A DNA stretch of 64,000 bases. Source: Basidiobolus meristosporus CBS 931.73. Its lineage: Eukaryota; Basidiobolomycota; Basidiobolomycetes; Basidiobolales; Basidiobolaceae. The notes beneath the pieces are model-generated. The model saw nothing but the letters and a program-made list of their open reading frames with translations, was not told the DNA's origin and ran no database searches. Position numbers and translations under genes: made by a program. The stretch is taken from NCBI GenBank assembly GCA_002104905.1, contig MCFE01000340.1:27854-91853 (forward strand). The letters run 5' to 3'. Within the stretch, counting starts at the first letter, position 1. Each line of letters begins with the position of its first letter. This document shows positions 12,689 to 64,000 of this stretch, piece by piece.

Positions 12689-13210
12689 GGAAACGCTCGG
12701 TTGAGGTCTTTATTTGAAAATATATGCACAGCGGTCAGACAAATTAGAAATAGTATAAGGTATAAAGGAAGAAATCTACAAGGGAAAACTATGGTCGCCT
12801 CTAACAAGAACCCACTTAACCCTCCAGCCAGCTTCAAAGTCGAGCTCTTGATAGAGACGGCGGCCTCCTTGTTCCCATCCATCCAATAAGGGAGTGGTCA
12901 TTGCTATTCAAGAATTTAATTCATTAACCAGCATGCATGAATATGACTGCATCTTTCCATATGAATGCCATGCTAAATTGGTTCAATCCGCACAACAATC
13001 AAAACTCAGAATGCTGCGAATCCACTCTCCTGCTTCCCCCTATACATCTGGATTTCCTCACCCGAATGACTTGACATGGATCTTCATATCACGAAGAATT
13101 CGCACCATTGAATCAATCCTAAGTACTGCATGTAGCAGAAATTGATCCAATTTATTCCGCTTTGGTCGGCGCGCCATTCCGGAATATTAACTCCCCGAAA
13201 AATTCGCGCC
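12689..13210. other. Divergent promoter interval
   Basis: This 522-base stretch separates the start codon of the spectraplakin-like gene (minus, 12688) from the likely start of the PUS7 gene (plus, 13211). It must hold both promoters. The sequence is AT-rich, but I can assign no particular TATA box or factor site with confidence. Confidence 0.45.
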
Positions 13211-15192
13211 ATGTTAGCCATGTTGTTACCGAGGTGTACGGCTTCTTTATGGAGCCGACCACCACTCCGCTGGAGGCTCCTGTGCGACAAATCCTACGTC
13301 CTCTCTCGCCCATTCCTGGTACCTTCTCAATCTCACCCTAGGAGCCACCCCCCGATACGTTTGTATACGACCTCGCCTCCGGCAGATGTCTCTCTTCAAA
13401 GCTCTATTGAAGAGCCCAATCCCGGCGACAGCGAGCTAAAGGGCGAAACTTGGGGGGAGAAGGCAGTTGGAATCACCGAGTTTCTCCGAGTTCCTACCAC
13501 CAGCATTTCAGGAATCATCAAGCACCGGTATTCGGATTTCGTGGTCAACGAGATAGACTTGAGTGGAAGGCCTGTACACCTCTCCGATTTCTCCCTACCC
13601 AAGACAACTCCTTTGACACCGTCAGAAGTAGTTTCGCTTGAGGAGAGTGTCTGTGCACTGTTGGACCTGATCCACGACCCCGCTGTAGTCCGGGAAATCC
13701 AACGTCTCTTTGACACTAGGGGAGAGGAGCCTACTGCGGTGTACATCGACGGTATAGGTGGCAAAGCAGCACGACAAAGAATCCATCAATTTTTCAAGAG
13801 CGCCTTCGAACGTAAGCTGACCACGGACACCGTCGACGGCAGAGTCAAGGTCGAGTACGTCTCGGATAGGCCGAAGCCCAGGGACCGGTGGCATTGGCGG
13901 AAAAGCAAACCGTGGGACATTGCCGAAGGAGAGTTCTGCCAATTCGTGGTGCGCAAAGAAAACAGAGACACCGCTGACGTCGTCGGCGATATTGCCCGAA
14001 TGACCAAACTCAGTCCCAAAGTCTTCTCTTACGCGGGAACCAAGGACAGACGTGGGATCACTACCCAGTTGGTGACCGGGCATCATGTCAAGGCCGAGAG
14101 GCTCCTGGGATTAAACAAATCGATGCGGGGAGTTCAGGTGGGGGGATTCAAGTACACCCCCGACAAGATAGACCTGGGTGACCTAAGCGGGAACCGGTTC
14201 GTCATCACCATCAGAGAGCTGGAGGCAGAGTCGATGGAGATGGTCGACCGTGAATTGACTGCTCTAAGGGATAGAGGGTTCATCAACTATTTTGGTATGC
14301 AAAGGTTCGGTGCCCGCGCGGTGCCCACCCATGTCGTCGGCAAGCATTTGTTGCTGGGGAATTGGGAAAAGGCTGTCGATTTGATTCTCATGCCGCGTGA
14401 AGGCGAGACAGGCACCATCGCGGAAGCCCGACAGCAGTGGGCCAGCACGCGGGACCCGAGCCTAGTCGTCAGCCTCTTCCCTAAGCGATGTGTTGCTGAG
14501 GTCAAGGTGCTATCAACACTGGCCCAGAATGGACGGCGGCGGGATTTTTTGGGGGCCATAAGCACGATCCCTCGCAACCTTAGGTTGATGTACGTTCATG
14601 CCTACCAGTCGTTCATCTGGAACCAGATGGTTTCGCAACGCATCCGCATGTATGGTTCCGATAAGCCAGTCGCAGGAGATCTTGTGCTTGCTGAACGTCC
14701 CCTAGAGAAGGGTGGTGGCTGTGTGAAGGCTTTGACCTCCGCCGACTTGTCCCAGTATTCAATCTATGACATAGTAATGCCGTTGCCCGGATTCGACGTG
14801 GAGTATCCGGAAAATGAGATCGGTAAGAGATATCTTGAGCGACTAGGCAAGGATGGGCTGGATCCCAGAGGAATGCATAGGAGTGTCAAGTAAGTCGGAT
14901 GTGCACGCAGGCTTCCAATCGCATGCGCTAATCACTTCAATCAAGGGAATTCTCGTTGCCCGGGTCCTATCGGCCATGTGTGGTTAAGCCCATGGATACA
15001 ACCTGGGAGCTGTTAGGTTACTCCGACCCTGATGAAGATCTCCCTGCTGTTGACCATCAAGAATCAATGCAAACTCCTCCCTCCCTTAATGGCTCTTACC
15101 AAGCCCTTAGACTTTCGTTCTCTCTTGGCCCTAGTCAATATGCTACTATGGCCTTACGAGAGTTCATGAAGCTGAAAACACCTAGCGAATAA
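13211..15192 (+). CDS. PUS7: tRNA/mRNA pseudouridine synthase, TruD/PUS7 family
   Basis: Exons are 13211-14889 and 14946-15192 (641 residues). The 56-nt intron has a GTAAGT donor and a GCTAATC branch site. Exon 2 restores the conserved family C-terminus (FSLPGSYR, then LRLSFSLGPSQYATMALREF). The enzyme converts uridine to pseudouridine in tRNA and other RNAs. The catalytic-motif block SYAGTKDRRGITTQ has its aspartate near residue 278; the second signature, NYFGMQRFG, is near 358; KHRYSDFVVNEID near 105 is the usual N-terminal motif. I chose the first in-frame ATG (13211). The first ~60 residues are rich in R, S and L, have no acidic residues before D29, and contain RLYTTS, like a mitochondrial presequence. 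That is unusual for PUS7 and is inference; a downstream start would give a nuclear form. Confidence 0.93.
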
Positions 15193-22423: not shown

Positions 22424-25400
22424 GTGCGGAAGAAGAAGCATCGACATGATGCTTCTAGAGAGGAGGCAAAGGAACCTGTAGTAGAGGTTCTGTCAAAAGG
22501 AAAGAGCGCGGAATTAGGTGAAGAAGTACGGAATGAACCTTGGGAAGAAGTATTAAAGCGAACAAAGAACGCTAGCACATCTTCCCATGGCCTATTCCCC
22601 ATAATGAAGGTACTAGAGCAAACCAAGGCAACCCTCCCAATAACCAATTTACTAGGACTGGCCCCGGCTCTAGTCAAGGAACGGATAGAGGGATTGAAGG
22701 AGATAACAACCCTCCATGTCAACCAGACGGTCCTGCAAAAACCAAATAAAGGTACATACGTAAAGGTACGTATAGAGAATAAGGAGATTCTCGCCCTTAT
22801 TGACACAGGATCCTCTACGTTGATCATGTCAGAGTCATTAGCAAAACGTCTAAAACTAAATATAGTCCCCAACGACACCATTTGAGTACGGCTAGCAAAT
22901 GACCAACTGGATACAACGGTAGGTGTGGTGCCTAATTGCCCCATTTGGCTAGGTAACTTGATAATACGCCAAGATGTTGTGGTCCTACCCGTCGCAGCCA
23001 ACAACTTACTCATTGGCAAGAGTTGGTTTATCCAACATAAGATGGATATACTTTACAGTGCATCTGAACTCAGGTGGGATACCGAGAGTATCCCACTGAT
23101 TCATATCACCGATGAGAGCGAGGCGCGTAGCAACAGTGTGACAATCGAAGAGGTGGAACCGTTGCAGTCTCCGATCATCACACAAAAGGTGATAAAAATA
23201 CCACCCGCCAGTGAGACGGTGATCTCATTAGAAACACCAATAGCTTATTCAACGAGCGGAAGAATGATAACCGCAGCAAAAGCATCCGAGCAACTGGAAG
23301 GAATCTCAATCCCTAAAGTATGGATACCACCGAAATTTGAAACGCAAAGCCTGAAATGCTTAGTGGTTAACAACGGGCAACACACGGTGACATTGCCTAG
23401 AGGAGTGCCATTGTTAAACTTAGAGGAAGTCGACGGAAACGACCAAGGACCACCTTCAAACGAAGAACCAGAAGAAGAACTCCCCAAACTAGATGTGGAC
23501 CCCGGTCTACCGCCTACGTTACGAGACAAATTCCTAGAAGGAATACATCCGCTTGCCCGAGTATTCTCTAAGAACCAAGTAATTGGTCATATACCTGGGG
23601 TATATCACCAAATCCACCTTGCCGACAAATACCCCATCAAGCAAAAAGCCTATAGGAATTCGAAAATTGACACAGACTATATCAAAGAGACGATTGAAAC
23701 TTTATTAAAAGACGACATCATTACAGAGAGCCAGTCTCTGTGGGCCTCCCGCGTAGTGATAGTCCCAAAGAAAGACGGAAAGCAACGCTTTTGCATCGAC
23801 TACCGGAAATTGAACGCCGTCACCCGGAAGGACGTGTATCCGCTACCGCAAATAGACGACCTCTTGGACAGATTAATCGGAGCTAAATATTTTAGCTCTC
23901 TTGACTTAATCTCCGGGTATTGGCAAGTAGAAGTAGCCCCGGAAGATCGACCCAAAACCGCTTTTATAACATTGTTTGGATTATACGAATGGAACCGACT
24001 ACCCTTTGGCTTGTGCAATGCCCCCGCTACATTCCAAAGGATGATCAACAAGGTGCTAGGAAATCTACGATGGGAATGCGCTCTTGTGTATCTGGACGAC
24101 ATCACGATATATTCACCCAATGTAGAAGAACATATACACGACGTGCAACGTATCCTGACAGCCCTCCTCAAGAACCAACTCAAACTACATCCCAAGAAGT
24201 GCCATTTCCTGTATACAAAATTGTTGTTCCTGGGCCACGAGATCTCGGCAGATGGAATATACCCATCTACGTCACTCCTGAAAGCCGTTCAAAATGCACC
24301 TGCACCAAAGGACATTAATGCAGTGTTGGGATTCCTAGGATTAGCCGGCTACTATCACCGCTTTGTCAAAAACTTTGCGACGATAGCAGCCCCCCTATAC
24401 GAATTGACGCAAAAGGGCCAGTGTTTTGTATGGTCGGAGCCTCAAAAGAGAGCATTCGATCAGCTGAAACATTCCCTGACGTCACCGCCAGTGTTACGAT
24501 TTCCCAATTGGGATACGAGATTTTTTATTAACTGTGATGGAAGCCTCACCGGTATAGGCGCCGTACTGGGACAATACCACCAACCCGGCAAATTCCACCC
24601 GATTGGTTACGTGAGCTGTTTGCTAAACAAACACAAACGCCACTACCCCGTTACCGAGATAGAATGTCTGGCTGTTGTTTATTCAATTAAACAATTCCAT
24701 ACATACATACATGGTCGCCAATTCACGATAGTAACGGACCACAGCGCACTGGTCTGGCTGATGAAAACTAAAGACTTTACTGGCCAATTAGCACGTTGGG
24801 CCCTACGACTACAGCAATACGACTTTGAAATAATTCACTGCGCTGGCAAGAAACACCAGGACGCAGACTTCCTCAGTCGCTATCCCGTTTGCCAAATACG
24901 TGTCAGTGATGAGTACGAGGACGTAATCTGCTTTAAAAAGAAAGGGAGGTATCCCGAACACGTTGTTACAAACAAACAGAAGAGAGAATTTCAAAGGAAA
25001 TGGTGTCAGTACAAAGTACAAGAAAATCGACTATGGTTCCTCCAAGGACAGTCCAGAGCCGAGGTACCCCCACTAGCAGCCCGTGAAGAAATCATACGAG
25101 AAAGACATATGTCATTAGGACACGCTAACCCCCTAACGACCTATAAGATGTTAAGAAAAACGTTTTATTGGCAAAAAATGATGACCAACGTTACGAATAC
25201 GTTACGAAGATGCACCACTTGCGAAAGATTCAACCAGAGTCAGAAGATAGGGACAACCGCACCAATACCGGTTGACCTGCCCTTCCACCAAGTAGGGATT
25301 GACTTTGTTGGCCCCTTTATGAAAACAAAGAAAGGAGAACGATACATAATAATTGCTACAGATTATTTCTCAAAGTGGGTAGAAGCCCAAGCCGTCCGCA

Positions 25401-26144
25401 ATAAAGATCAGAAGACAACCGCCCGATTCATTCTAGAACACCTCATCTGCCGACACGGATATCCTCAGATACTCCTGTCCAACAATGGTGGTTCCTTCCT
25501 GAACAGACACCGTGGCCCACCTGTGCAAAATGATGGGCGTGAAACAAGTCTTCACGGCCGCGTATCACCCCCAGACTAACGGATTAACCGAGAGGATGAA
25601 CCAGACGTGTTGCCGCATACTGGAGAAGCTTCACTGGGAACTTCCCCAATCATGGGCCAAGCTGCTCCCACTGACACTCCTAGCAATGCGCACCACACCA
25701 AATAAAACGACGGGTTTCTCCCCATATGAAATCCTATATGGACGAAGACCCAAGTGGCAGGAGGAAGCTGGATTAACGATGGAAGGTGTCCCCCTGACGA
25801 CACATAACGACTATATAGAAAGGTTGATACACCGTATCGCCCACCTATACATAAAAGTATTCGAAAATGTCGACAAGCACCTTCCCCCTCCACCCAAAAA
25901 TGAGAAACTAACGAGACAAAAGTGGAAACCAGGCGATAAGGTGTGGTACAACCAAACCGTTGCAGGCCTCAAGTTCCGCCCACGATTTACACCCCAATGG
26001 ATTGGCCCATGCACCGTTATCAGTTCGGACCACGGACCAAAGTACACCATCACCCTGAATAATAAGACAATCAGCAACGTAGCGCCAGCCCATCTGAAAC
26101 CGTTTCATGATGATCCACCAATCATCACTGAGACCAAAGTGTGA
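22424..26144 (+). pseudogene. Ty3 pol: protease, RT, RNase H, integrase (broken)
   Basis: Domains in order: aspartic protease (LALIDTGSSTLIMSE, near 22790-22840); reverse transcriptase (YRKLNAVTRKDVYPLPQIDD; catalytic YLDDI near 24090); RNase H (INCDGSLTGIG; VTDHSALVWL); integrase zinc finger (HMSLGHANPL...CTTC); and integrase core (GIDFVGPF; HPQTNGLTERMN). Breaks: an in-frame TGA at 22883 just after the protease core; an extra base near 25507-25511, moving integrase into another frame that continues 25512-26144; and the second catalytic aspartate read as N (SNNGGSF). No chromodomain is seen at the C-terminus, unlike the minus-strand element next door. Pol is inactive unless complemented. Confidence 0.93.
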
Positions 26145-49800: not shown

Positions 49801-51357
49801 ATTCTGAAGTGAATCAGTAGCCCCCTATGAAAGAATTGGTGTCTAGAATGCTCGACTACAGAGGTACACGGCCAAAGGCAGTTTACCGTAAGCTGCTTGT
49901 TGAACATTGTCAAATGGATTTCGGTTTCGTCTACACTTTCTAGAAAGATTCGAAACATGAGATTACTCGATTGATAAGAGCCTTACTTGCTCATTCTACT
50001 TCGTTTCAATGAGTTTTCGGTCGAACTAGATACACTTGGTGATATCTGCTTGTTTCCGATCCTCAGAACTATCTACTTGGTAAGTATACATATTCGTATG
50101 TGTATACAGCGGTGCTGGCCTCACCCAAATCTCCTGAATAATCGGTCAGACAATAGGGAGAGATGTACAACTTTGAGGAGGTTCTCATGGTTTCAATAAG
50201 GTTTGAACTCTAGAAAAGCCAGGCTCAACTGGTGCCCTGAATATAAAACCTGCTTGAGTATTCACATACCAATGCAATTCGCATCTTGGGGCTTTTAGCT
50301 ACCAAGCGTCAGCAGCCACGAGTACTTTATATCTGGGCCATCAAGAAGTTTATCAATTGCTTAGTCATAGTGCTCTTCCAATGTAATACGCCACTATAAG
50401 CCACACATTCTTTCAAATGCAAGCCAAGCCCTAACATCACGAACAAATACAGTGCTACCGTATAGCTCGTAATGTATTAGATTTAACTTTTGATAGTGTG
50501 ATGTGTATAGCCTAACTGCTACTCTCCTAGAGTGCTGCGCTAACACTGAACGGATGTCATCAGATCAGGAACCGTGGCTAAAGTCCCCTACATAAAATGT
50601 GTGTACGAAAAGCAGAAATCGGGTCACTCATCAACATAAAATTCCATGTAAGCCCTTTTGTGGTTTCTGGCTGGAGCACAGTATAGATGCTTTAGCAGCT
50701 AGGATGATTCAAGCATAATATCGGAACAGCAGCAGCTACGAGAACTATTCATGCAGGTAACAAATAACATGTAATATAAAGAGTTGGTATCTAAATAATG
50801 ATCATATTGGCATACGGCTTGGGGTAACTTGGCTATGATATCATTTTGCGGGCAAGGTAGAGGCTGAGTATTAGCAGGTTTATGCTTATTTGGTGTTTTT
50901 GTCCAAGTGGGATGAAGACACTTCTTACACCTTGGGTCTGTAGATATAAATTAATTTGTTTATATCCTATCTGGAGACTTGCAGGGCATATATTTCATTC
51001 AAAGCTATACAAAAATATCCATTTAACTACTGCTACTATGGTTACCTGATGTTTTATATTCTGTGTTTTCATCTAAATGTTCCATTTACCTAGTCATTTT
51101 GCTCATAGCTTACAAGCTTACTAGGGCTAGGGGAGGGGACATTCACTAGAAGTTGTAATAATTATTTCCATAACTCAGTATACAGCAACCAAGTTCTATA
51201 TGAGTAGCTTTTTAACTGGGGGATTAGTGTATGGTGTAGGTGTTTTAGTAAGGACTAGGAAAAGGTTAGAAGAACAGGGGGTCTGGGGGATGCAGTCCCC
51301 TAGAGAAGAGAAAAGCAGGGGGTTTGGGAGGATACAGTCCCCCATACTGCTCCCATA
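49801..51357. other. Spacer upstream of the SUMO protease
   Basis: The left end may contain further 5' exons and the promoter of the minus-strand protease gene. Beyond about 50200 the sequence becomes AT-rich, with no gene or clear repeat end. A short tandem similarity is seen at about 51275-51350 (GGGGGTCTGGGGGATGCAGTC and a second near-copy). Confidence 0.35.
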
Positions 51358-52086: not shown

Positions 52087-52607
52087 TGTTGTAAGAGTCT
52101 TGGAGATATTGAAAGTGAGTGGGAGAACAAGTAGATTATGTGGTTTTCACTTTATGATTAATTGAATGTAAAAGTAGTATTTATACCCTTACCTAGTCTT
52201 GGTATTACAGACAAGTAGAACAGGTTAAGGAAGGTCCCAAGAACATGTGTGCAGAGTTTGGGGCTGTTTGGACAACTTTGAGATTTTTCATTTGCTGGGT
52301 AGCTGGTATTTTGGTGAAAATATTCTAAGTAAATCCCAACAAGGAATTTGGTCAGTATTCCCAAGGATTTGAAGGTAATGAACTAAGAAACTAAATTAGG
52401 TGAATATTTAGGTGGAATTACAAATTTTTACAATACTCCCACTCAGCTAAATGCTCATACTGACAAGTCCTAATTTTGACCAAAGATATTCAAGCTTGTC
52501 TCTTGCTAATGGCTTGGTAAATATGTCAGCAATCATATCATCTGAAGGACATAAAGCCTAAGCTAACTAAGTTATTCTCTATAGCTTCATGTAAGAATCA
52601 AAGCTCA
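52087..52607 (-). mobile_element. Ty1/copia 3' end: RNase H tail and LTR
   Basis: Reading from 52607 on the minus strand, the C-terminus of copia pol is visible (SDDMIADIFTKPLARDKLEY, then LWSKLGLVSM) up to a stop near 52455. A polypurine tract (GAGTGGGAGTATTG) follows, then a 346-base LTR (52087-52432) running TGTAAAAATTTG to CTTACAACA on that strand. The rest of pol is missing: at 52608 the sequence switches to the telomeric LINE array. Confidence 0.8.
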
Positions 52608-52989
52608 TCAGGGGTAAATATAGAATTCAGGGGTTTTGGGGGAAGTACAAATTGTAGATGTTTCTGATCAATATAATCCAAGACTGGAACCCAGCCTGGG
52701 ATTAGGTGTAGTAGCAAAGGTGTGTGGACTTGTAAGTAGCTCTGCCACATAGATCTTAGATGGTCCTGTGCCAGTAGTCTTGTTTTCTCAGCTTTTTGAA
52801 GTTTTGAAGCAAGCTCTGTTACTACAGCAGAGCCAAGCAGGGTGTGCCAGCAAGAAGATTTTCAAGAGGAGTTAGATTTAAGCCATTGTTTGATAGAGGG
52901 GTTATGTGCTTTCTGAAGTTTCACTAGGAAGGAAGCACAGAGATAGACCATTTGGATTTGGTATGAGTAGAACCCAAAGGCTCCATTAG
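52608..52989 (-). pseudogene. LINE family A fragment (ORF2 C-terminus)
   Basis: Nearly identical to 56830-57212 of the large family A copy, from the CTCATCAGGGGTAAATAT block to the GAACCCAAAGGCTCC block. Its 5' end (right) joins TTAGGGTTAGGGGG directly. Its 3' end (left) is lost at the junction with the copia relic. This is the innermost recognisable member of the telomeric array. Confidence 0.85.
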
Positions 52990-53001
52990 TTAGGGTTAGG
53001 G

Positions 53002-53390
53002 GGAGGAAAGTCACCAAGTGGTGAAATCTTTATTTACTTATGACAAGTATCTAAAGAAGCCAAGTTAATCTGAAGTTATTCCTAGAAAGCTAGGTCTGAG
53101 AGATATCTTCCTGGTAAGCCAGGTCTGAGAGTTGAGAAGCTGAGTGGTACTATATTTCCTAGTTAGCTAAGTCTGAGAGTGGTTTCCTGGAAAGCTAGGC
53201 ATGAGAAGTGAGAATCTGAATATATCTGAACTAAGTTATACTGGTTTGCAGTTGCTGAATTGTGACCAGAATGGCCAGTGGACTGGGGGAACTGAGAGGA
53301 ATTTCTGGGCAATCACTGGCCAAATTTACTAGGCAAATCTGGCCAATTAGCATTTCCAGGATTTCAGCCAATCAGAGCCTGTACTTTGGG
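53002..53390 (-). mobile_element. Short non-coding telomeric element (SINE-like), copy 1
   Basis: A 389-base element with no open frame lies between TTAGGG units at 52990-53003 and 53391-53397. Its 3' tail is that of the LINEs (GGAGGAAAGTCACC, TGGTGAAATCTTTATTT and AAAGAAGCC on the plus strand). Near the tail are four imperfect repeats, each able to fold: CCTAGAAAGCTAGG (53081), CCTGGTAAGCCAGG (53110), CCTAGTTAGCTAAG (53158) and CCTGGAAAGCTAGG (53186), most followed by TCTGAGAG. It presumably uses the LINE reverse transcriptase. Confidence 0.7.
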
Positions 53391-53429
53391 TTAGGGGGGC
53401 AGTCACTCAGGGGAAGGAAAGGGTTAGGG
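53391..53429 (+). repeat. Interstitial telomeric repeats around a tiny 3'-tail relic
   Basis: TTAGGG-type units at both ends enclose about 27 bases (GCAGTCACTCAGGGGAAGG region) resembling the GACAGTCACCAACAGG tail of family B. Confidence 0.5.
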
Positions 53430-54314
53430 GAGGGAAAGTCACCAAGGTAGGTGAAATCTTTATTTGATTGCAGACAAGTCTAACTACAAATAAAGAAGCC
53501 AGCTGGGAATAGAAGATTCCCAAAGTAAACACTAAGTTGAATATGAATAAATCTAAGCTAAAGTTAAGGCAGTATCCCAGAGTACACTGGAGTTCAGGTA
53601 CATGGGGGAGTGAAGTAGATAAGCTTGAGAGATATAATAATCTTTGAGGAAGTGGGTAACAGCAGGTGAAGGGGAGCTTTTGATAAGTGAAGTGAATCTT
53701 GAGAGCAGAGATTCCTCTAATGAGAAGGTCTTGTAAACTGGAGAATCAGGAAACTCTTTAAAGGCATGGTCAGTAGGTTCAAGTAAAACTGGTCAGAGAC
53801 ATTTTGAGAGAACACTTTAGCAATACTTTTGTCAAGTACTACCTCCAGAGTGTGATTGTTGATAAATCTCATGTTAACAATCTTCGATAAATTGTAACCT
53901 TGTTGCTTGAGATACATCCTATGCTCAGATATAGGAATGAACTCCACATTGGCAAAGTAGCAGACAGCCCAGTCAGTAGCAGGAGGCAAATCAGAAGTAG
54001 CAGGAAACTTTCTTTTAGTCTTGGGAGGAGCAGTAGGATGTCTTGAGGAAGCAGGAACAGACTTTTTGACAGCTTCAGAGTAGGAAGAGTGAGCGGGAGC
54101 AGATGATTCTTGGGGAGTCTTGTTGACAGGAACAGCTGGCAGAGAGACAATAGATTCTTGCAGATCAGAGAAGGCAGAAAACAGCTTTTGAACTTGTTTC
54201 TTGAGTAAAGCATTTTCAGCTTCAACAAGTGCAAGCCTTTCCTCAAGGAAGGAAATCTGAAGGGAATGGAGTGAAGGCATAAGAAATAAGAAGAAGAGGG
54301 TTGGATGGGGTGGG
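53430..54314 (-). mobile_element. ORF1-only LINE derivative
   Basis: An 885-base element with telomeric sequence at both ends (TTAGGG 53424-53429 and 54315-54320). It has a 5' leader of about 34 bases, ORF1 (54280-53717) and the common 3' tail, but no ORF2. Its tail is closest to that of family A. It looks like a non-autonomous deletion derivative. Confidence 0.75.
53717..54280 (-). CDS. LINE ORF1 protein, shortened
   Basis: 187 residues starting at an ATG about 34 bases inside the element. The N-terminal coiled coil (FLEERLALVEAENALLKKQV) suits trimerisation of ORF1 proteins. A basic S/P linker follows, then a folded region near 105-165 (YFANVEFIPISEH, LSKIVNMRFINNHTLEVVLD) that matches the ORF1 of the family A copy (YFANVPWTTIS, SKIVNL, LEMIVD). 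The C-terminus diverges abruptly after about residue 170, where the internal deletion apparently joined new sequence. An RNA-binding chaperone role is inferred from LINE ORF1 proteins in general. Confidence 0.7.
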   Translation of the reverse strand: MPSLHSLQISFLEERLALVEAENALLKKQVQKLFSAFSDLQESIVSLPAVPVNKTPQESSAPAHSSYSEAVKKSVPASSRHPTAPPKTKRKFPATSDLPPATDWAVCYFANVEFIPISEHRMYLKQQGYNLSKIVNMRFINNHTLEVVLDKSIAKVFSQNVSDQFYLNLLTMPLKSFLILQFTRPSH

Positions 54315-54320
54315 TTAGGG

Positions 54321-54541
54321 GAGGAAAGTCACCAAGTGTGAAATCTTATACTTATGACAAGTATCTAAGAAGCAAGTAATCTGAAGTTATCTAGAAAGCT
54401 AGGTCTGAGAGATATCTTCCTGGTAAGCCAGGTATGAGAGTTGAGAGGCTGAGTGGTACTGTATTCTAGTTAGCTAGGTCTGAGAGAGGTTCTGGAAGCA
54501 GGCTGAGAAGTGAGAATGATATATCTGAGCTTAGTTATAGG
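54321..54541 (-). mobile_element. Short non-coding telomeric element, copy 2
   Basis: It corresponds to the inner 260 bases of copy 1, with the same hairpin repeats (54390, 54419, 54466) and the same tail. It is flanked by TTAGGG at 54315 and 54543. It differs from copy 1 mostly by shortened homopolymer runs (for example CTTTATTT to CTTAT, AAAG to AAG, CCA to CA). Confidence 0.7.
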
Positions 54542-54548
54542 GTTAGGG

Positions 54549-56672
54549 GGGAGACAGTCACCAACAGGTGAAATCTTTATTTCAGTTGAAACAAAGAAGC
54601 CAGCGCTACTGTTGTAGCTTTGATACAAGAGTGTGTAGCTGAGGGGAATTTGTAGGTAAGTTAATAAGAAGTGATGATAGTTCTTCAGTGCTCAAGACAC
54701 TGTTCAGTGGGAAGGGGGGTAGCAAGAGAGGTAAGAATGACTTGTGAACAACATTAATGAGGGGAATGTGATAAGGATTGATATTCATCATAAAGGGAGT
54801 GTGCTGCTGCAGATATTGCTGCCAAAGGTCTGTCAAGTACTTCAGGTAGGCCAGCTTGGGTTTTTCTGACTGCAGAATAATATGCAGCAAACTTCTTGAC
54901 TTCAGGATCTCCAAGTATAGTTCTCCAGCAGGAGTCAGGTGTTGTGTGGTGTGTTCTCTTCCAGGCCTTAATCAGTGGGTTGTTGCAGTTGTGAAGTCTG
55001 AGGTATAATCTGGTTCTAAGGTAGAGAAGTCTGATCTCTATAGGGCATAAACCCAAAAGCACCAAGAATAGCATGTCTGTAGGGGCATTCAGGCAAATGA
55101 GGCACCAAGGAGGTAATGCACCATACTGCAAACTTGTCAAGCTTAGTGCAGTCTCTAGAAGTAAGAGAGAGAAGTGGTAAGCCAAATTCCAGGACAGGGA
55201 AGACAAACTGCTTGAGTAGAAGGAGGCAGCTGGGAGCTGAAGTTGTAGGAGGAGTAACAGCCAGTAGCTTGTGGAGTGCCTGTCTTGCCAGGATAATTCT
55301 CTTCTTCAGGTGTGCTCCAGAGTCTAGTCCAGTAGGAAGGAAAGGAAAGCCAAGATATGTAGCAGAAACCTGAGCAGGTAGAGTGGAGTTCTCCAAGTTG
55401 ATGGGAGAGCCCAAAGGTACTGTCTTTGCAATGGAAAGCTGGAGATTATTCTTCTGCAGATACTGGTGGATGGTCTGGGAGTCTTGTTGCACATTGGAGG
55501 AGGATATTCTGATGTCATCAGCAAAGAGAGTAACCAGGCAGTCAGCTGAGAGTCTTGGGAAATCATTCAGGAAGATGGCAAACAGTATAGGACCAAGCAC
55601 AGAGCCTTGAACCACTCCATTAGGAACTGAGAACACAGCTGATTGCTCACTTGGGTGCAGAATTCTTGCTTGTGGATCCAGAAACAGAGACCTGACAAGG
55701 AGGGTGAGAGAGGTACTGGAGAAGCATTGCAACTTGGACCAAAGCAGATTTCTGTCAACTGAATCAAAGGCCTTAGTAATATCAAACAGAACAGAGGGAT
55801 ACTTGCACTGGAGAGAGTGATCTTGGCTAAGTATGACTGCATATTCCAAGGAGAGGCCAGGAACAAAGCCAAACTGTGCAGGATGAAACTTGAGGGAGTC
55901 AGAGTAGAGCTCCTGAGCAAGCAGAAGCTCAAACACCTTTCTGCAGGTGGGCAGCAGAGATATTGGCCTGTAGGAGCTAGGATCCAGGTGCTTTCCTTTA
56001 CCCTTGTACAGTGGCAGAACATTTGCAAAGGACCATTCCTCAGGAGTAGAAAGCTGGGCTGAGCATTGCTGAAACAGTGGAAGCAGAAGTGCAGACATGG
56101 CCTTGGTACTAGTCTTCAGAAGCTCATAAGAGATTGTGTCCACACCTGGAGCAGTAGAGTTGGGAAGCCTCTTGAGCACATTATGGATTCTCCTTTGATC
56201 AAGTGCAAGTGGGATGGGCAGAGTCTTGAAGTCAGGATGAAAGCCAGGAGTTGAGTACTGCTTGTAGAGAAGAAGATGTTAGCCAGCTGTTCTGTTGAAG
56301 GTAACTTCCTGGAAGAGGGCCTCATTGCCCTGTAGAGTCTTGATACTGTTCTTGTTATAGAGTTGGAAGATTGCAGAGGCAAGAACTCATAATATGATCC
56401 CAGAGCTGAGTATAGAGTGTGGTAATTGCCTTGAGTGGTGTATTGCTGTCAGGAGGAGTTCTCTGTTTTTGGGTTAGGAAACTCAGTAGCTTTGTTGCAG
56501 GCTGAAACAATGGATTCCATTTTCTTGAGTAACAGCAGTAGTCTTGATGCAGTGAGAGGAGGCAGACACAAATCAGATGCTTCACAAGAGCAGCATAGTG
56601 AGATCATCAGAGAAGTAGCAAATGCAAGCTTCAAGTAGTTCCAAAGTCTCTCTGATCTGTAGCTTGTAGGTG
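54549..56672 (-). mobile_element. LINE family B, 5'-truncated copy 1
   Basis: Telomeric units bound it (TTAGGG 54543-54548; TTAGGGG 56673-56679). It ends at 54549 with the common 3' tail. It starts (right) inside ORF2 upstream of the reverse transcriptase and carries about 0.5 kb more 5' sequence than copy 2. Confidence 0.85.
54606..56660 (-). pseudogene. Family B ORF2 (reverse transcriptase), frameshifted
   Basis: The intact block 56179-55016 has APGVDTISYELLK, SYRPISLLPTCRKVFE, FDITKAFDSVDR, NGVVQGSVLGP and catalytic FADDIRIS. Two small sequence changes relative to copy 2 break the C-terminal part: GATCTCTATAGGGC against GATCTTAGAGGGC near 55032, and AATAATATGCAG against AATAAATTCAG near 54885. 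Upstream of 56179 (QKQRTPPDSNTPLKAITTLY and related pieces to about 56660) several frames alternate, so that part is also damaged. It is not functional. Confidence 0.85.
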
Positions 56673-56760
56673 TTAGGGGAGGGAAAGTCACCAAGTTGGT
56701 GAAATCTTTATTTGAGTTAAGAACTAATCTAAGTACAAATAAAGAAGCCAATTAAGAGGT

Positions 56761-59610
56761 CTAGAACCTCTCTAATAAGTAATCTAATTTATGTTTTGTT
56801 TCATCTCTAATGTTTGTTTCAATAAAGTAAAGCTCATCAGGGGTAAATATAAAATTCAGGGGTTTTGGGGGAAGTACAAATTGTAGATGTTTCTGATCAA
56901 TATAATCCAAGACTGGAACCCAGCCTGGGATTAGGTGTAGTAGGAAAGGTGTGTGGACTTGTAAGTAGCTCTGCCACATAGATCTTAGATGGTCCTGAGC
57001 CAGTAGTCTTGGTTTCTCAGCTTTTTGAAGTTTTGAAGCAAGCTCTGTTACTACAGCAGAGCCAACCAGGGTGTGCCAGCAAGAAGATTTCAGGGAGGAG
57101 TTAGATTGAAGCCATTGTTTGATGGAGGGGTTATGTGATTTCTGAAGTTTGACTAGGAAGGAAGCCCGGAGATAGATCATTCGGATTTGGTATGGGTAGA
57201 ACCCAAAGGCTCCATTAGTTGCATGGATATAGGGAGATACTGGAAGATAAGGTACCAAGGATCTGATACACTGATGGAGAAATTTATCCAGGCGGTGAAG
57301 TTCTCTGGAGGTTAGGGGTATAATGTGGAGACCAAATTCAAGTACTGGCAGCACATACTGCTTCAGAAGTATAGGGATCTTTTGAATTGGAGTGTCTGGA
57401 GTGACTACTACCAGAAGCTTTTTGAGAGCCTGTTGGGCAAGACGGATCCTATTATTCAGGTGGAGCTTTGAGTCAATCCCATGTTGACAAAACGGCAGAC
57501 CTAGATATATTGCAGTTTGTTGTGGCAGAATGCTAGTGTTCTGTATAGTTGTAGTGCATCCAATTGGGACTGTCTTGGAAATTGAGAGTGAGAGGTTGTT
57601 GGCAGCCAAGTACTTCTCAATGATGGCAGTGTCTGCTATGGGATTAGGAGTAGCAATCTTGATATCATCCGCATAGAGAGTTAGTAGTGGATAGGGAGAG
57701 TCTGGTGAGGGGCCTTTTGGAAATAAAGGAAAGTCATGTAGGAATATCACAAATAGTAAGGGACCTAGTACAGATCCTTGGACTACTCCATTTGGAACCT
57801 CATAAGTCTCTGATGTACAACTTGGATGCAAAATTTTGGCTGAGTTCTCACAAAATAGAGAACGTACAAGAAGGGTCATTGGTAGTGTGGTAACTGCTAA
57901 TAGCTTTCTCCAAAGCAGAGCTCTGTCCACAGAGTCAAAGGCTTTAGTAATGTCAAACAGAATGGTTGGCAATGAGAATTGAAGTGAATGATCATGGCTT
58001 AGCACTACAGCCATATCCAAGGAGAGTTTGGGCAAGAAGCCAAACTGAGAAGGATGGAATGGATATAGTTGAGATTGCAAGGATCTTGCTATCATAAGCT
58101 CAAAGATTTTCCGGCAGGTTGGTAGGAGTGAAACTGGCCGGTAAGAACCTGGGAGTGAGTGTTTCCCCTTCCCTTTGTATAAGGGTATTACATTTGCCTG
58201 TGACCAGGCCTTTGGGGTAGTCAATTGTTGGGCACAGATAGAGTAGAATGGGAGAAGTAAGTGACTCATTTTGGAGTAGCACACCCGGAGTAGATCGTAG
58301 GTAATCAAGTCATGTCCAGGTGCAGTATTTGCAGGAAGCTTCTTTAAAATTTTCTCCAGAAGCTTTGCTGAAACCAAAATTGGAGATGTTGGACTGCTAG
58401 ATATGTTACCAGTATGGTAGAAAGGAGGAGTGGGATGCACGGTTGAATCAAAGAATATAGGGGCCAGTTTGTCTGGTGATGGTATACTCCTTGCTTGGGG
58501 TCTCATGGCTTTGTATACTCTTGATATGGACCTTGTGGTGGCATTCATATTTACTAAGGGCAAGGTATCCATGATATGAGCCCATAATCTAGTATGCTCA
58601 GTGATCTGTAGTGACTTGGAGTAGGAGATTGCGCTTTCCAGGAGGTTCTGTGTTTTTGGGTTAGGGAAACATAGGTAGCTGGAATTTAAGGCAGAAATGA
58701 TGGATTTCCATTTAAGTTGGTTTGCAGATGGCTTTTGGTAGGACTTGGTGGGCAGGGCCAGACAGCCAGTGATTATGATGAAATGCTGGTAAAATAGCCA
58801 TAATGCATTTATATCATCACAAATCCATGCAGGTAAGCTGGGAAATGCATATTCTGTAAGCAAGGATAGGTAGTTGGCAAAGTCCTGTGTCTGTGATACT
58901 GAAGCTTTGGCTGGCAGGATTGTAAATGGCTGAAGAAGGGTGCCAATTGGTAGGGTTTTTCTGGCAGAAATGATAATATGTATTGGCTTGTGATCAGATT
59001 TCTCTAGTGAACCACAGCTGATATCCTCTGGAATGCTTGTAACCTGGTGGATGTACTGTAAGGCAGCTGGAGTAGCTGTTACCCAGTCAACACAACGTTG
59101 AGCTTGCTGAGTGTTTACAGTGACCAGATGGTTTTGTCGGAGGAACTTTGTAAAGTGCTCCTCTCTGGTTCTAAGTCTGGATGAAATAGTGGTGATATTT
59201 TCAGGGTGGGGAATATTTATATCTCCCACTACCATACAAGGGATTGATGAGCTGTTAATGAATTCTGATGTGGCCAAGAAAATTGCCAGTGTTATGGAGT
59301 TAGACAGAGATGGAGGGAGATAGATAATAATGGCTACTATAGTTGGAAGTGTTAGAGCATAGCAGTAATACTCATAGATGATGGATACATTTGCTGAGGG
59401 TGCAAGCTTAGAAGATGAAAGAGCAACAAGTGCCATTGAGTGAGCTGGAAATCTTGGGTGAGCAGATGAATATGCATTCAGTCTAGAGGGAAGTTTTGGC
59501 AACTTAACATCAATTAGTAGGAGCAAGGAATATTCCTTTTTCAGTAAGTTTTCTAATTCAGCTACAGTTGGAGTGATGGAGTTGCAATTGAGTAAGAGTA
59601 TGTTTTGTAG
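56761..59610 (-). CDS. Family A ORF2: APE-type endonuclease and reverse transcriptase
   Basis: The frame continues without interruption from the ORF1 stop codon (949 codons and a stop). Its first residues already belong to the endonuclease (NILLLNCNSITPTVAELENL), so no ATG precedes the domain. Endonuclease signs: the N of LNCNS; YLPPS; VVGDINIPH; SDHKPIHI. The usual glutamate after the second strand appears as D (LLLIDVKLP). The reverse transcriptase has PGHDLITYDLL, SYRPVSLLPTCRKIFELM, FDITKAFDSVDR, NGVVQGSVLGP and catalytic YADDIKI near residue 610. No RNase H is visible. The product should nick target DNA and prime cDNA synthesis there. Apart from the stop before it, this ORF2 is open throughout. 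Confidence 0.88.
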   Translation of the reverse strand, partial: LQNILLLNCNSITPTVAELENLLKKEYSLLLLIDVKLPKLPSRLNAYSSAHPRFPAHSMALVALSSSKLAPSANVSIIYEYYCYALTLPTIVAIIIYLPPSLSNSITLAIFLATSEFINSSSIPCMVVGDINIPHPENITTISSRLRTREEHFTKFLRQNHLVTVNTQQAQRCVDWVTATPAALQYIHQVTSIPEDISCGSLEKSDHKPIHIIISARKTLPIGTLLQPFTILPAKASVSQTQDFANYLSLLTEYAFPSLPAWICDDINALWLFYQHFIIITGCLALPTKSYQKPSANQLKWKSIISALNSSYLCFPNPKTQNLLESAISYSKSLQITEHTRLWAHIMDTLPLVNMNATTRSISRVYKAMRPQARSIPSPDKLAPIFFDSTVHPTPPFYHTGNISSSPTSPILVSAKLLEKILKKLPANTAPGHDLITYDLLRVCYSKMSHLLLPFYSICAQQLTTPKAWSQANVIPLYKGKGKHSLPGSYRPVSLLPTCRKIFELMIARSLQSQLYPFHPSQFGFLPKLSLDMAVVLSHDHSLQFSLPTILFDITKAFDSVDRALLWRKLLAVTTLPMTLLVRSLFCENSAKILHPSCTSETYEVPNGVVQGSVLGPLLFVIFLHDFPLFPKGPSPDSPYPLLTLYADDIKIATPNPIADTAIIEKYLAANNLSLSISKTVPIGCTTTIQNTSILPQQTAIYLGLPFCQHGIDSKLHLNNRIRLAQQALKKLLVVVTPDTPIQKIPILLKQYVLPVLEFGLHIIPLTSRELHRLDKFLHQCIRSLVPYLPVSPYIHATNGAFGFYPYQIRMIYLRASFLVKLQKSHNPSIKQWLQSNSSLKSSCWHTLVGSAVVTELASKLQKAEKPRLLAQDHLRSMWQSYLQVHTPFLLHLIPGWVPVLDYIDQKHLQFVLPPKPLNFIFTPDELYFIETNIRDETKHKLDYLLERF

Positions 59611-60731
59611 TCAGGCAGACTCTGAGGTTGCCTGTTCCTGCTGAAACTCTTGCACTGCCCTTTGTAAATTTCCAGAATTATTCCACAACTCTTCAAATGG
59701 AGCTTGTGTAATGTCTTTCAGGATTCTAATTGCTTCCTCTTTCAAGAAGTAGGCCACATCATAGGTTGGAGCCTGTTTCTTAATGGCAGCAAAGAAAGCC
59801 ATAATTGCCATGTGAGCTGGGGCTTGTTGAATATTCCTGGCTCAGTGTCCATTGACTCTGGTGGAATGATTGTGAATTTGGTAGACACCCAGTTTAGATT
59901 TTTTGCCAGATACTTAGTCAATGCAGTGGAGAAGTTTCTGTCCACAATCATTTCTAGGATCTTTCCTCTTCTCCAAGCTAGGTTAACAATTTTTGAAGTG
60001 TCAATATTTAGAGAGCGGAATGTATGTCTGATGTTTGATATAGTAGTCCATGGAACATTGGCAAAGTATAGCAAGGACCAATTCTGGAGCTGAGGTAAGT
60101 TTGCTGGAGGCTTATAGGTAGACTTCCTGGCAGGTTGTGTGGTAGGCTTTAGTGTTTCCAAGGTAGCAAGTTGTGGTTGAGACTTTTTGGAATTACGTAT
60201 GACTTTGGAAAGAATTCTGCCAGCAACTGTGTCAGGAATGTTAGTACTCATTGATGGTGCAGGGCCTGGCTCCTGGTACTGCTTTTGTAGAATACTTGAG
60301 TATGTCTCTTTTTGTTTTCCTTTATCCAATGTGCTATGCCTTGGAATGGGATTTTGGGGAATAGAGACTTCAGGTATCAACTCTGGGGTCTGGTGATTGT
60401 CCAACATTGTTGCTTGAGCTTCCAGCTTTTCCTCTAAGATTTGAACTCTCTGCTTAAGCTCATCATTTGACGCTATAAGTGTTGCATTGTTTGGAGCCAG
60501 GTCAGGTGTTGAGTTATGAAGGCAGGTTGAGCAGCGTTCTAACTCCTTTGTTTGGTCATCCAACTTTTCTTCTAAGGTTTGAACCCTCAATTTGAGTGAA
60601 CCATTTGAGGTTAGAAGCTCCAAGTTATCAGCCTGCAACTTCTTTAGATCCCTAAATATCTCAAATATCTGTGCCTGCAAGTCTTTAGCAGTGATATTTC
60701 TGATAAGTACTATTTCCTCTAGGGGTTCTTC
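59611..60731 (-). pseudogene. Family A ORF1, coiled-coil RNA-binding type, one frameshift
   Basis: The open frame from the 5' end to 59742 encodes two coiled-coil blocks (LQADNLELLTSNGSLKLRVQ, then NDELKQRVQILEEKLEAQ), a basic linker, and the YFANVPWTTIS...SKIVNLAWRR...LEMIVD domain shared with the ORF1-only derivative. A one-base shift near 59825 moves the true C-terminus (MAIMAFFAAIKKQAPTYDVA to the end, SESA) into the frame that stops at TGA 59613-59611. With the shift corrected, ORF1 is about 380 residues. ORF1 proteins form ribonucleoprotein particles with element RNA; that is family knowledge, not shown here. Confidence 0.78.
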
Positions 60732-60743
60732 TTAGGGTTAGGG

Positions 60744-62403
60744 GGGGGAGACAGTCACCAACAGGTGAAATATTTATTTCAGTTGAAACAAAGAAGTCAG
60801 CGCTACTGTTGTAGCTTTGATACAAGAGTGTGTAGCTGAGGGGAATTTGTAGGTAAGTTAATAAGAAGTGATGATAGTTCTTCAGTGCTCAAGACACTGT
60901 TCAGTGGGAAGGGGGGTAGCAAGAGAGGTAAGAATGACTTGTGAACAACATTAATGAGGGGAATGTGATAAGGATTGATATTCATCATAAAGGGAGTGTG
61001 CTGCTGCAGATATTGCTGCCAAAGGTCTGTCAAGTACTTCAGGTAGGCCAGCTTGGGTTTTTCTGACTGCAGAATAAATTCAGCAAACTTCTTGACTTCA
61101 GGATCTCCAAGTATAGTTCTCCAGCAGGAGCCAGGTGTTGTGTGGTGTGTTCTCTTCCAGGCCTTAATCAGTGGGTTGTTGCAGTTGTGAAGTCTGAGGT
61201 ATAATCTGGTTCTAAGGTAGAGAAGTCTGATCTTAGAGGGCATAAACCCAAAAGCACCAAGAATAGCATGTCTGTAGGGGCATTCAGGCAAATGAGGCAC
61301 CAAGGAGGTAATGCACCATACTGCAAACTTGTCAAGCTTAGTGCAGTCTCTAGAAGTAAGAGAGAGAAGTAGTAAGCCAAATTCCAGGACAGGGAAGACA
61401 AACTGCTTGAGTATAAGAAGGCAGCTGGGAGCTGAAGCTGTAGGAGGAGTAACAGCCAGTAGCTTGTGGAGTGCCTGTCTTGCCAGGATAATTCTCTTCT
61501 TCAGGTGTGCTCCAGAGTCTAGTCCAGTAGGAAGGAAAGGAAAGCCAAGATATGTAGCGGAAACCTGAGCAGGTAGAGTGGAGTTCTCCAAGTTGATGGG
61601 AGAGCCCAAAGGTACTGTCTTTGCAATGGAAAGCTGGAGATTATTCTTCTGCAGATACTGGTGGATGGTCTGGGAGTCTTGTTGCACATTGGAGGAGGAT
61701 ATTCTGATGTCATCAGCAAAGAGAGTAACCAGGCAGTCAGCTGAGAGTCTTGGGGAATCATTCAGGAAGATGGCAAACAGTATAGGACCAAGCACAGAGC
61801 CTTGAACCACTCCATTAGGAACTGAGAACACAGCTGATTGCTCACTTGGGTGCAGAATTCTTGCTTGTGGATCCAGAAACAAAGACCTGACAAGGAGGGT
61901 GAGAGAGGTACTGGAGAGGCATTGCAACTTGGACCAAAGCAGATTTCTGTCAACTGAATCAAAGGCCTTAGTAATATCAAACAGAACAGAGGGATACTTG
62001 CACTGGAGAGAGTGATCTTGGCTAAGTATGACTGCATATTCCAAGGAGAGGCCAGGAACAAAGCCAAACTGTGCAGGATGAAACTTGAGGGAGTCAGAGT
62101 AGAGCTCCTGAGCAAGCAGAAGCTCAAACACCTTTCTGCAGGTGGGCAGCAGAGATATTGGCCTGTAGGAGCTAGGATCCAGGTGCTTTCCTTTACCCTT
62201 GTACAGTGGCAGAACATTTGCAAAGGACCATTCCTCAGGAGTAGAAAGCTGGGCTGAGCATTGCTGAAACAGTGGAAGCAGAAGTGCAGACATGGCCTTG
62301 GTACTAGTCTTCAGAAGCTCATAAGAGATTGTGTCCACACCTGGAGCAGTAGAGTTGGGAAGCCTCTTGAGCACATTATGGATTCTCCTTTGATCAAGTG
62401 CAC
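60744..62403 (-). mobile_element. LINE family B, 5'-truncated copy 2
   Basis: It is almost identical to 54549-56190 but truncated at TGCACTTGATCAAAGG, directly followed on the plus strand by TTAGGGTTAGGGG. The 3' tail (GGGGAGACAGTCACCAACAG on the plus strand) is preserved. Confidence 0.88.
60803..62374 (-). CDS. Family B reverse transcriptase, C-terminal 523 residues
   Basis: A single open frame covers the reverse transcriptase fingers/palm (APGVDTISYELL; YRPISLLPTCRKVFELLLA), motif A (FDITKAFDSVDRNLLW), motif B (NGVVQGSVLGPILFA), catalytic FADDIRIS near residue 220, thumb, and a C-terminal helical region (YLRTRLYLRLHNCNNPLIKA) also seen in family A. The endonuclease and ORF1 are lost by 5' truncation. 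The frame remains intact, so the insertion is recent; whether it is expressed is unknown. Confidence 0.88.
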   Translation of the reverse strand: MLKRLPNSTAPGVDTISYELLKTSTKAMSALLLPLFQQCSAQLSTPEEWSFANVLPLYKGKGKHLDPSSYRPISLLPTCRKVFELLLAQELYSDSLKFHPAQFGFVPGLSLEYAVILSQDHSLQCKYPSVLFDITKAFDSVDRNLLWSKLQCLSSTSLTLLVRSLFLDPQARILHPSEQSAVFSVPNGVVQGSVLGPILFAIFLNDSPRLSADCLVTLFADDIRISSSNVQQDSQTIHQYLQKNNLQLSIAKTVPLGSPINLENSTLPAQVSATYLGFPFLPTGLDSGAHLKKRIILARQALHKLLAVTPPTASAPSCLLILKQFVFPVLEFGLLLLSLTSRDCTKLDKFAVWCITSLVPHLPECPYRHAILGAFGFMPSKIRLLYLRTRLYLRLHNCNNPLIKAWKRTHHTTPGSCWRTILGDPEVKKFAEFILQSEKPKLAYLKYLTDLWQQYLQQHTPFMMNINPYHIPLINVVHKSFLPLLLPPFPLNSVLSTEELSSLLINLPTNSPQLHTLVSKLQQ

Positions 62404-62416
62404 TTAGGGTTAGGGG
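62404..62416 (+). repeat. Interstitial telomeric repeat
   Basis: TTAGGGTTAGGGG separates the truncated 5' end of the family B copy from the 3' end of the terminal family C copy. Confidence 0.9.
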
Positions 62417-63764
62417 TCTAAATTCTTTTATTGAATCTGATCAAGTATCGTAATACTATTTCAACTTGATTCAAGTTGAAAAGTGCATATTGTATAAAAA
62501 AGATATATCCATAGTAATGTGAAGGTAAAATACTGCTCAAGCTGAGTTGAGTTTTGGAAAGAAATTTGTCAACAAATCAGGCTAGAAAATGAAGTAAAGC
62601 TGGGAGTTATTTGAAAGCAAAGCACTAAGGGAAAGTGTAGAGCTATACTACCACTTCCTGAAAGGCAGGGATCTCACAGGAAGGCAGAAGCTCAGGTCTA
62701 ATTGCAGATATGATGGCAGAAAGTCTCTGGATGAGCTCCCTTTGTTTGTGAAATTGGAACAAAGATTGGGTATCTTTGAACCCAAAGCAGCTCTCTTCAT
62801 GAGAGAAGTAAAAATACCTGCTACAGTAGGGGCACCTGGAACCCAAGCAAAGTGTGTTCATCCTCCACCTTATGGCCTGGAAGGCAAAGAAGGAACTCCT
62901 GATGTAAAGGGATATGTCTGCTCCACTATGGGAATGTCTACTCTCATGAGAAATAAGTCCAACTCTGTCTTTTGAGCTAGTAACTATGGAGATATTCTCC
63001 AGCTTCCTTTTATGCATTGCTACAGAGAGAGGAATAAGCTCTCTAGGTGGCTTGGCACTGTTGGAGGCCAGATAATCTCTATAACCATCAGGAAAGTGTA
63101 TCTTCTTTCTCACCAATGACTTTGGGGTGGCTTGGACTAAGTTGTTAGTAATCTTATTGACTAAGATCTTCAAAGGATTATTGGGTGATGCTTTTGCATA
63201 GTGCTGCCCAAATCTGATACCTAAAGTCTCAAATCTGATTGGCACAGCCTCAATACCAGTCAGACTATGTATAAGCCTCTGATATTGCCTAGAATGGTAG
63301 TCAGAAGCATTGACTACCCAGCCAATAGCTTCTTGCTGCAGAGCTTGTAGCTTGGTAATGAGGTCAGGATCAGCAGCCAAACACATCATAGGAGCAGCAT
63401 ACTCCCAAGATGACCTCACAAAGGCCTTGAATAGCTGTAGCCTAATCAGAGGATGCCATCTGGCCCCTTTGAGCTGTAGGAATCTCAAAGTGGCAGAAGC
63501 CCTTTGAATACACTTTTCAGTGTAAGCTGCCCAAGAAATACCACTTTGACAAGTTGGGAGTCCAAGGTAGCTGTAAGAGGAAGGTTGAGGCAGAAGGGAG
63601 TTATTGAAGGAAATATTCCACTCTGGTGTGGGACCAATGTATGCTGATTTAGCAGTGTTTACCTCCATACCATTGGCAGTACACCATTGGCTGACTTTAC
63701 TCAGCAAACAATTAGCTTCTGAGAGACTCCTAGGCAGCAATTGGATGTCATCAGCAAACAACAG
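62417..63764 (-). mobile_element. LINE family C, 5'-truncated, terminal copy
   Basis: It is the outermost element; its truncated 5' end (CTGTTGTTTGCTGATGACAT on the minus strand) meets the telomere proper. Its 3' end (TTTAGACCCCTAACCC on the minus strand) lacks the CACC/GGTG hairpin tail of families A and B, so it is a distinct family. Confidence 0.85.
62643..63761 (-). CDS. Family C reverse transcriptase remnant with zinc knuckle
   Basis: 372 residues, open from the truncation point. It begins inside the catalytic motif (FADDIQLLP) and continues through the thumb (SYSYLGLPTCQSGISW; LQLFKAFVRSSWEYAAPM). A C-terminal zinc-knuckle-like motif is at about 307-327, spaced C-X4-C-X2-C-X7-H-X3-C (CPYCSRYFYFSHEESC). 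Everything 5' of the active site is missing, so it cannot act as a polymerase. The sequence differs clearly from families A and B; the long C-terminal domain with a CCHC-type motif fits other LINE clades. Confidence 0.85.
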   Translation of the reverse strand: MFADDIQLLPRSLSEANCLLSKVSQWCTANGMEVNTAKSAYIGPTPEWNISFNNSLLPQPSSYSYLGLPTCQSGISWAAYTEKCIQRASATLRFLQLKGARWHPLIRLQLFKAFVRSSWEYAAPMMCLAADPDLITKLQALQQEAIGWVVNASDYHSRQYQRLIHSLTGIEAVPIRFETLGIRFGQHYAKASPNNPLKILVNKITNNLVQATPKSLVRKKIHFPDGYRDYLASNSAKPPRELIPLSVAMHKRKLENISIVTSSKDRVGLISHESRHSHSGADISLYIRSSFFAFQAIRWRMNTLCLGSRCPYCSRYFYFSHEESCFGFKDTQSLFQFHKQRELIQRLSAIISAIRPELLPSCEIPAFQEVVV

Positions 63765-64000
63765 TTAGGGTTAGGGTTAGGGTTAGGGTTAGGGTTAGGG
63801 TTAGGGTTAGGGTTAGGGTTAGGGTTAGGGTTAGGGGTTAGGGTTAGGGTTAGGGTTAGGGTTAGGGTTAGGGTTAGGGTTAGGGTTAGGGTTAGGGTTA
63901 GGGTTAGGGTTAGGGTTAGGGTTAGGGTTAGGGTTAGGGTTAGGGTTAGGGTTAGGGTTAGGGTTAGGGTTAGGGTTAGGGTTAGGGTTAGGGTTAGGGT
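63765..64000 (+). repeat. Telomere, (TTAGGG)n
   Basis: About 39 units of the G-rich strand run 5' to 3' to the window edge, marking this as the right end of a chromosome. One unit is TTAGGGG (near 63832). Its true length is not visible. Confidence 0.98.

Follow-up and report, generated by a model that had tools for sequence, protein, structure and literature searches.

By what route does a chromosome end come to consist of retrotransposons lined up on one strand and separated by short tracts of telomeric repeat? The question is raised by the telomeric end of contig MCFE01000340.1 of Basidiobolus meristosporus CBS 931.73, an early-diverging fungus of the phylum Basidiobolomycota. The stretch analysed here, called the window, comprises the last 64 kb of this 91,853-base contig and belongs to an assembly of 89.0 Mb in 1,311 contigs; L-numbers below denote genomic stretches cut out around element copies, and C-numbers denote contigs of the same assembly. 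The window ends in an array of long interspersed nuclear elements (LINEs) and non-autonomous partners. Such arrays probably arise by telomere-directed LINE retrotransposition primed at short or broken ends, in alternation with telomerase.

Eight minus-strand elements lie between approximately position 52576 and the terminal TTAGGG tract (Table 1), as an earlier note made from the letters alone had described, and one possible micro-copy of ~26 nt is added to them. The span given there, 52608..63764, is altered at its start, which the A-like match moves to ~52576, and the array now ends at 63763. The orientation assigned to all copies, with their own 3′ ends toward the centromere, is seen in seven of the eight elements, the 3′ end of E1 having been lost. 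TTAGGG stands between neighbours at all eight boundaries, the micro-copy's included, and three families bearing a reverse transcriptase (RT), A, B and D, share the array with two non-autonomous types, C and E3, as had been proposed. The RVT_1 domain was found in four of the six open reading frames (ORFs) scanned, counting E8, whose match is below the Pfam cut-off. Of the 40 occurrences of TTAGGGTTAGGG in the window, 37 fall in the terminal tract and three at inner boundaries; 100 dinucleotide shuffles contain none. Longer family A copies at other loci continue further 5′ than E6, full-length relatives of E8 occur elsewhere in the genome, and E7 is 99.1% identical to E5 across 1.66 kb; most copies, as the note likewise claimed, are truncated at the 5′ end, to varying extents and with intact 3′ modules. 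One weak match apart, no further array element was detected in the rest of the window by DNA search (E 1e-3, positions 1-52700) or by tblastn (whole window). The exception, at 51117-51168, is a 53-nt match to an array element and is possibly a decayed relic.

Table 1. Elements of the terminal array, listed from the centromere side toward the telomere (positions in the window)
Feature	Position	Strand	Description
E1	52576..52988	-	piece of A-like LINE from C-terminal part of ORF2, lacking its own 3′ end; matches family A positions 152-543 at 95% DNA identity
E2	52997..53387	-	element C (SINE-like), 5′ truncated; TTAGGG at both ends
Possible micro-copy, uncertain	53394..53419	-	~26 nt of element 3′ end between two TTAGGG joints, read directly
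E3	53425..54311	-	ORF1-only element; 203-aa ORF at 53717-54328; protein similar to F
E4	54318..54537	-	element C, 5′ truncated; 88% identical to E2
E5	54544..56671	-	family B LINE, 5′ truncated, frame interrupted; RT ORF 55016-56278; RVT_1 7.1e-26
E6	56678..60731	-	family A LINE, nearly full; ORF2 56761-59610 (949 aa, endonuclease + RT); ORF1 59742-60731, 5′ truncated
E7	60744..62403	-	family B LINE, 5′ truncated; ORF 60803-62440; RVT_1 1.8e-24
E8	62416..63763	-	family D LINE, 5′ truncated, capped by terminal telomere; ORF 62643-63764; RVT_1 6.8e-6, below Pfam cut-off
Terminal telomere	63764..64000	+	(TTAGGG)n, 237 nt, reaching contig end

The arrangement recurs across the genome, with the same elements beside TTAGGG at other ends. 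In this assembly, contig telomeres stand almost always at the right end (6,978 forward and 73 reverse matches of the telomere pattern). A genome search with the family A ORF2, in which 48 of 1,279 candidates were scored, gave 52 rows, 50 of them on the minus strand; the two plus-strand rows both lie at most 2.8 kb from a left contig end. At all 30 A loci with known contig size (contigs of 12.8 to 251 kb) the copy lies 0-11.6 kb from the right contig end, and these loci, with the strand bias, are the basis of the telomere association and fixed orientation put forward in the note; the contrary outcome that it had named, copies mostly internal and devoid of flanking TTAGGG, was not found. A pattern for the shared 3′ end matched 1,486 times genome-wide (1,369 forward and 117 reverse; control 0), and 92% of these ends are on the strand that carries 99% of telomere matches. 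The reverse matches, among those listed, lie at most 18.4 kb from the contig start, both for this pattern and for the 3′ end with one, two or three TTAGGG repeats nearby, the three-repeat matches being listed in full. With family D as query there were 686 candidates, and the 110 that were scored gave 112 rows; the four rows with known contig size lie 2.9 to 11.5 kb from the end or at a telomere, in matching orientation; a weak D-like row on the plus strand (C136:42620-42775) is not near the left end. Two other readings are that general LINEs accumulated in subtelomeres in the ordinary way, or that the assembly is at fault. Repeats do tend to collect at contig ends, and the contigs are oddly one-sided in orientation, but neither reading leads one to expect a strand bias, TTAGGG at the majority of joints or one pattern shared by many contigs; we regard both as barely credible.

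Genome-wide, the families comprise the LINEs A, B and D, the ORF1-only elements E3 and F, and the short interspersed nuclear element (SINE)-like element C, F being present at other ends. Family A has ORF1 and an ORF2 of 949 aa, family B (in L066) has an ORF1 of 523 aa, with a CPNCG zinc-ribbon-like stretch noted by eye, and an ORF2 of 922 aa, and family D has an open frame of 1,027 aa, in which the endonuclease motif reads AETWF, preceded by ORF1-like frames. The single ORF1-like proteins of E3 and F are 43% identical to one another. Because E3 is also 43% identical to the F homologue annotated in Basidiobolus ranarum (269 aa, 61% over 89% to F, on a 3,087-base contig), the split between E3 and F appears to be older than the two Basidiobolus species. 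Element C, of ~520 nt, has the same 5′ end at three places and carries A-box-like and B-box-like motifs recognised by eye; a scan of L068 for a tRNA-like head of this element with ARAGORN and Rfam found no tRNA. A, B, C, E3 and F have a common 3′ module of two predicted hairpins followed by a C-run and UAA, whose stems are nearly invariant across the five families, so that covariation is uninformative. Family D is the exception, with a distinct 3′ end in which TTAGGGTTAGGGG adjoins TCTAAATT at all three distinct places. Within single copies, the 5′ region of an element F (L069:2900-3130) contains what seems by eye to be a ~100-bp tandem unit with GGGTTAGGG, and a solo-long terminal repeat (LTR)-like stretch of ~350 bp (L058:4599-4948) interrupts a B copy, 5 bp of which are repeated on either side.

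By its features, an APE-like endonuclease and a LINE-type RT in ORF2 plus an ORF1, family A is an apurinic/apyrimidinic endonuclease (APE)-type non-LTR retrotransposon. The endonuclease, whose APE type the note had recognised, is N-terminal (residues 1-218) and has the R1/TRAS1 fold, with the refinement that Asp replaces the metal-ligand Glu in A and B; the enzyme may well be active. A restriction-like endonuclease was rejected for A, as the 949-aa ORF2 has no CX2C and five relatives have no CX2C...H...C motif. A first AlphaFold model, with a predicted local distance difference test (pLDDT) of 47, was not used. Fourteen scored A ORF2 rows span residues 1-949 without a stop, 11 of them at 99-100% identity. 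The ratio of nonsynonymous to synonymous polymorphism (pN/pS) is 0.21 over all pairs among 13 intact copies and 0.28 over distinct mutations in 14 copies, both values being biased somewhat low by a sample of stop-free, full-length copies only; ORF2 of family A looks to be under purifying selection.

Joints between elements were counted on the forward strand of 40 stretches (L001, L022, L032-L061, L063-L069 and the window) after duplicate places had been dropped; L063, being reversed, contributes none. At the 75 3′ joints, the telomeric letters including GGG have a median of 9, a mean of 10.6 and a maximum of 42 nt, and ten terminal tracts measure 189-240 nt (mean 213). If the terminal tracts have been shortened by assembly, as is perhaps the case, the gap between them and the inner tracts could only widen. 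Genome-wide, 1,235 shared 3′ ends have TTAGGG 2-12 nt away, 331 have two repeats and 66 have three, the two- and three-repeat patterns being looser at the right end and counting a few places twice; about a sixth of the 1,486 3′ ends lack a perfect TTAGGG at that spot. All 75 counted 3′ joints follow a G-run and not TT, the search pattern itself having demanded at least two G, and the 3′ ends of A, B, C, E3 and F, as read, all follow a G-run. This run varies from 4 to 8 G in A (31 joints) and from 5 to 10 in B (20 joints), whereas G-runs inside the elements are nearly constant in these stretches (all 14 in B are G6, and 25 of 26 in A are G5). Sequencing noise was therefore rejected as the main cause, and we take the variation to reflect slipping of the RNA's C-run against a 3′ end in GGG. 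At 17 of the 74 distinct joints the preceding DNA does not resemble the array elements, and the median number of telomeric letters there is 6, versus 9 at the other 57 (one-sided p 0.0045), and in L068 and L046 an element is joined almost directly to non-array DNA. At L068:1-1240 and in the left flank of L046, Copia-like DNA stops abruptly, and one TTAGGG links it to a C or A element; L068 then ends in terminal telomere, as a healed break would.

These joints bear on the chief alternative, namely that, as in TRAS and SART, the endonuclease cuts normal telomere tracts and long inner tracts later break, so that short ones remain. The APE-type endonuclease with its TRAS1/R1 fold speaks for such cutting, as does MoTeR, in which, according to the available portion of PMC7367193, inner tracts are prone to breakage once they exceed three repeats, and no more than two repeats are retained at stable ends. 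However, a TRAS1 nick, placed between the T and A of the repeat in the part of PMC7265360 consulted, would leave TT at the 3′ joint instead of GGG. The joints to DNA unlike array elements, with about one repeat, the prevalence of 5′-truncated copies, and 5′ joints that fall in all six phases of the TTAGGG repeat, with microhomology, are likewise at odds with cutting, and we hold this alternative to be rather unlikely.

The 5′ joints examined number 86 (75, and 11 at long tracts); 53 of them could be matched to a reference sequence extending beyond the joint. The 40 flush joints overlap by 0 nt in 4 cases, 1 in 15, 2 in 13, 3 in 3, 4 in 4 and 10 in 1; an overlap of at least 1 nt is thus present in 36 of 40, compared with 47% in simulated random joins (p 1.6e-8). 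Where the telomere starts with TTA (26 joints), it is preceded by C in 22, which would look alike under a default telomerase start and under one extra G at the RNA 3′ end. Truncated copies are capped directly by the terminal tract in L038, L039, L041 and L059. The 19 traced A 5′ joints lie at 19 different reference positions and 74 of the 75 3′ joints are distinct, which rules out a single array duplicated once and bears out the independent insertions suggested in the note. The same counts argue against a process in which arrays grow and pass from end to end chiefly through recombination or break-induced copying and transposition is rare, as does the pN/pS near 0.2 among intact copies, which points to retrotransposition. 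Such copying is consistent with the A 5′ joint point and filler common to L038 and L039, whose 3′ sides differ, and with the one joint present in both L039 and L054; as the main process it appears improbable.

Priming at eroded or broken ends is favoured because the inner tracts are tiny, the 5′ phase is free and accompanied by microhomology, and some joins are to non-array DNA; the joints fit such priming better than cutting inside a long tract, and their anatomy, taken from the assembled letters, would fit cDNA priming directly from the chromosome end. The G-rich strand is the likely primer, because a fixed orientation is what such priming gives. In the proposed pathway, this strand would end, after erosion or breakage, in about one TTAGGG, and its 3′-OH would prime reverse transcription of the C-rich 3′ tail of an element RNA (...CUCCCC, perhaps with UAA); RT would often stop early, leaving a 5′-truncated copy, and the new end would then be capped by telomerase or by the next element. 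The A and B enzymes probably also mobilise C, E3 and F through the common 3′ module, and D may use the same ends with its different 3′ end.

Several observations weigh against priming without cutting. Inner tracts of 30-42 nt occur at three of the 75 joints, and inner tract lengths are derived from the assembly and not from raw reads. The D joints have a constant two repeats at all three places, which may be templated. Filler or a misaligned edge is present at 13 of the 53 traced 5′ joints, and if these unclear joints are scored as having no overlap (36 of 53), p is only 0.002. The A endonuclease retains GDxN, SDH and the APE fold, and that of family D has the usual Glu, so that cutting is possible for both. 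Finally, the end-placement counts are uncorrected for the tendency of repeats to break contigs.

A Telomerase_RBD domain scores above the cut-off, in two pieces, on C880. Absence of telomerase is excluded by this RNA-binding domain, and because telomerase is encoded, its replacement by the elements is unsupported; the elements may have a role in end maintenance, as the note suggested. Tentatively, three LINEs, two gag-only elements and one SINE-like element may together form a break-healing system, in which the C-rich RNA 3′ end would act much as a one-repeat telomerase template at any G-strand end that is short or broken, the endonuclease of A and B would be dispensable, telomerase would finish the cap and the arrays would record past losses of ends; we consider this possible, though doubtful.

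Elsewhere in the window, ORFs encode fungal Zn-cluster and Fungal_trans domains, a PUS7-like gene lies at 13136-14893 (a second copy in the same species, P0110, is only 55% identical), and an intact-looking Gypsy-type LTR polyprotein with RT, RNase H and integrase domains lies at 22886-25579.

A search by title and abstract start, with subscription literature outside its reach, found no report of telomeric LINEs in Basidiobolus, and the fungal cases found were MoTeR and FoTeR. The present case is one of APE-type telomeric LINEs in Basidiobolomycota, whereas the fungal ones described use a restriction-like endonuclease, as far as the available extracts go, and here several autonomous and non-autonomous families share one target. 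The system bears on the question whether chromosome breaks can be healed by LINEs that do not cut DNA, and the coexistence of TTAGGG caps, a telomerase gene and intact LINEs makes it a natural test of end extension by telomerase versus retrotransposons. HeT-A, TART and TAHRE of Drosophila attach to ends in one orientation and include ORF1-only elements beside RT-bearing ones, and both features recur in Basidiobolus. The Drosophila elements serve a host without telomerase and simple repeats, whereas TTAGGG tracts and Telomerase_RBD are present here. Zepp of Chlorella, GilM and GilT of Giardia and Tx1-1_ACar of the anole are, in the excerpt of PMC10088271, telomere-associated LINEs found alongside telomerase repeats, and the Basidiobolus LINEs resemble them in this, by description and not by sequence. 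TRAS and SART have poly(A) after TT, whereas the Basidiobolus elements have GGG, a variable G-run and a C-rich tail, their 3′ joints do not show the insertion between TT and AGG that marks TRAS/SART, and they have ORF1-only and SINE-like partners, unlike TRAS/SART. SART1 requires at least three repeats in the portion of PMC7265360 seen, and only full-length copies are reported at silkworm telomeres in the passages available of PMC4700185, whereas Basidiobolus copies are mostly 5′ truncated. MoTeR (Pyricularia) and FoTeR (Fusarium), as described in parts of PMC7367193 and PMC12857005, are fungal elements at TTAGGG with the 5′ end toward the chromosome end, short inner tracts and truncated copies, and the former also records a truncated MoTeR2 to which a telomere was added de novo, with a T as seed. 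The Basidiobolus elements are like them in pointing their 5′ ends toward the chromosome end and in having TTAGGG at the joints, but MoTeR and FoTeR carry a restriction-like endonuclease, whereas family A lacks the CX2C...H...C motif and bears an APE domain at its N-terminus.

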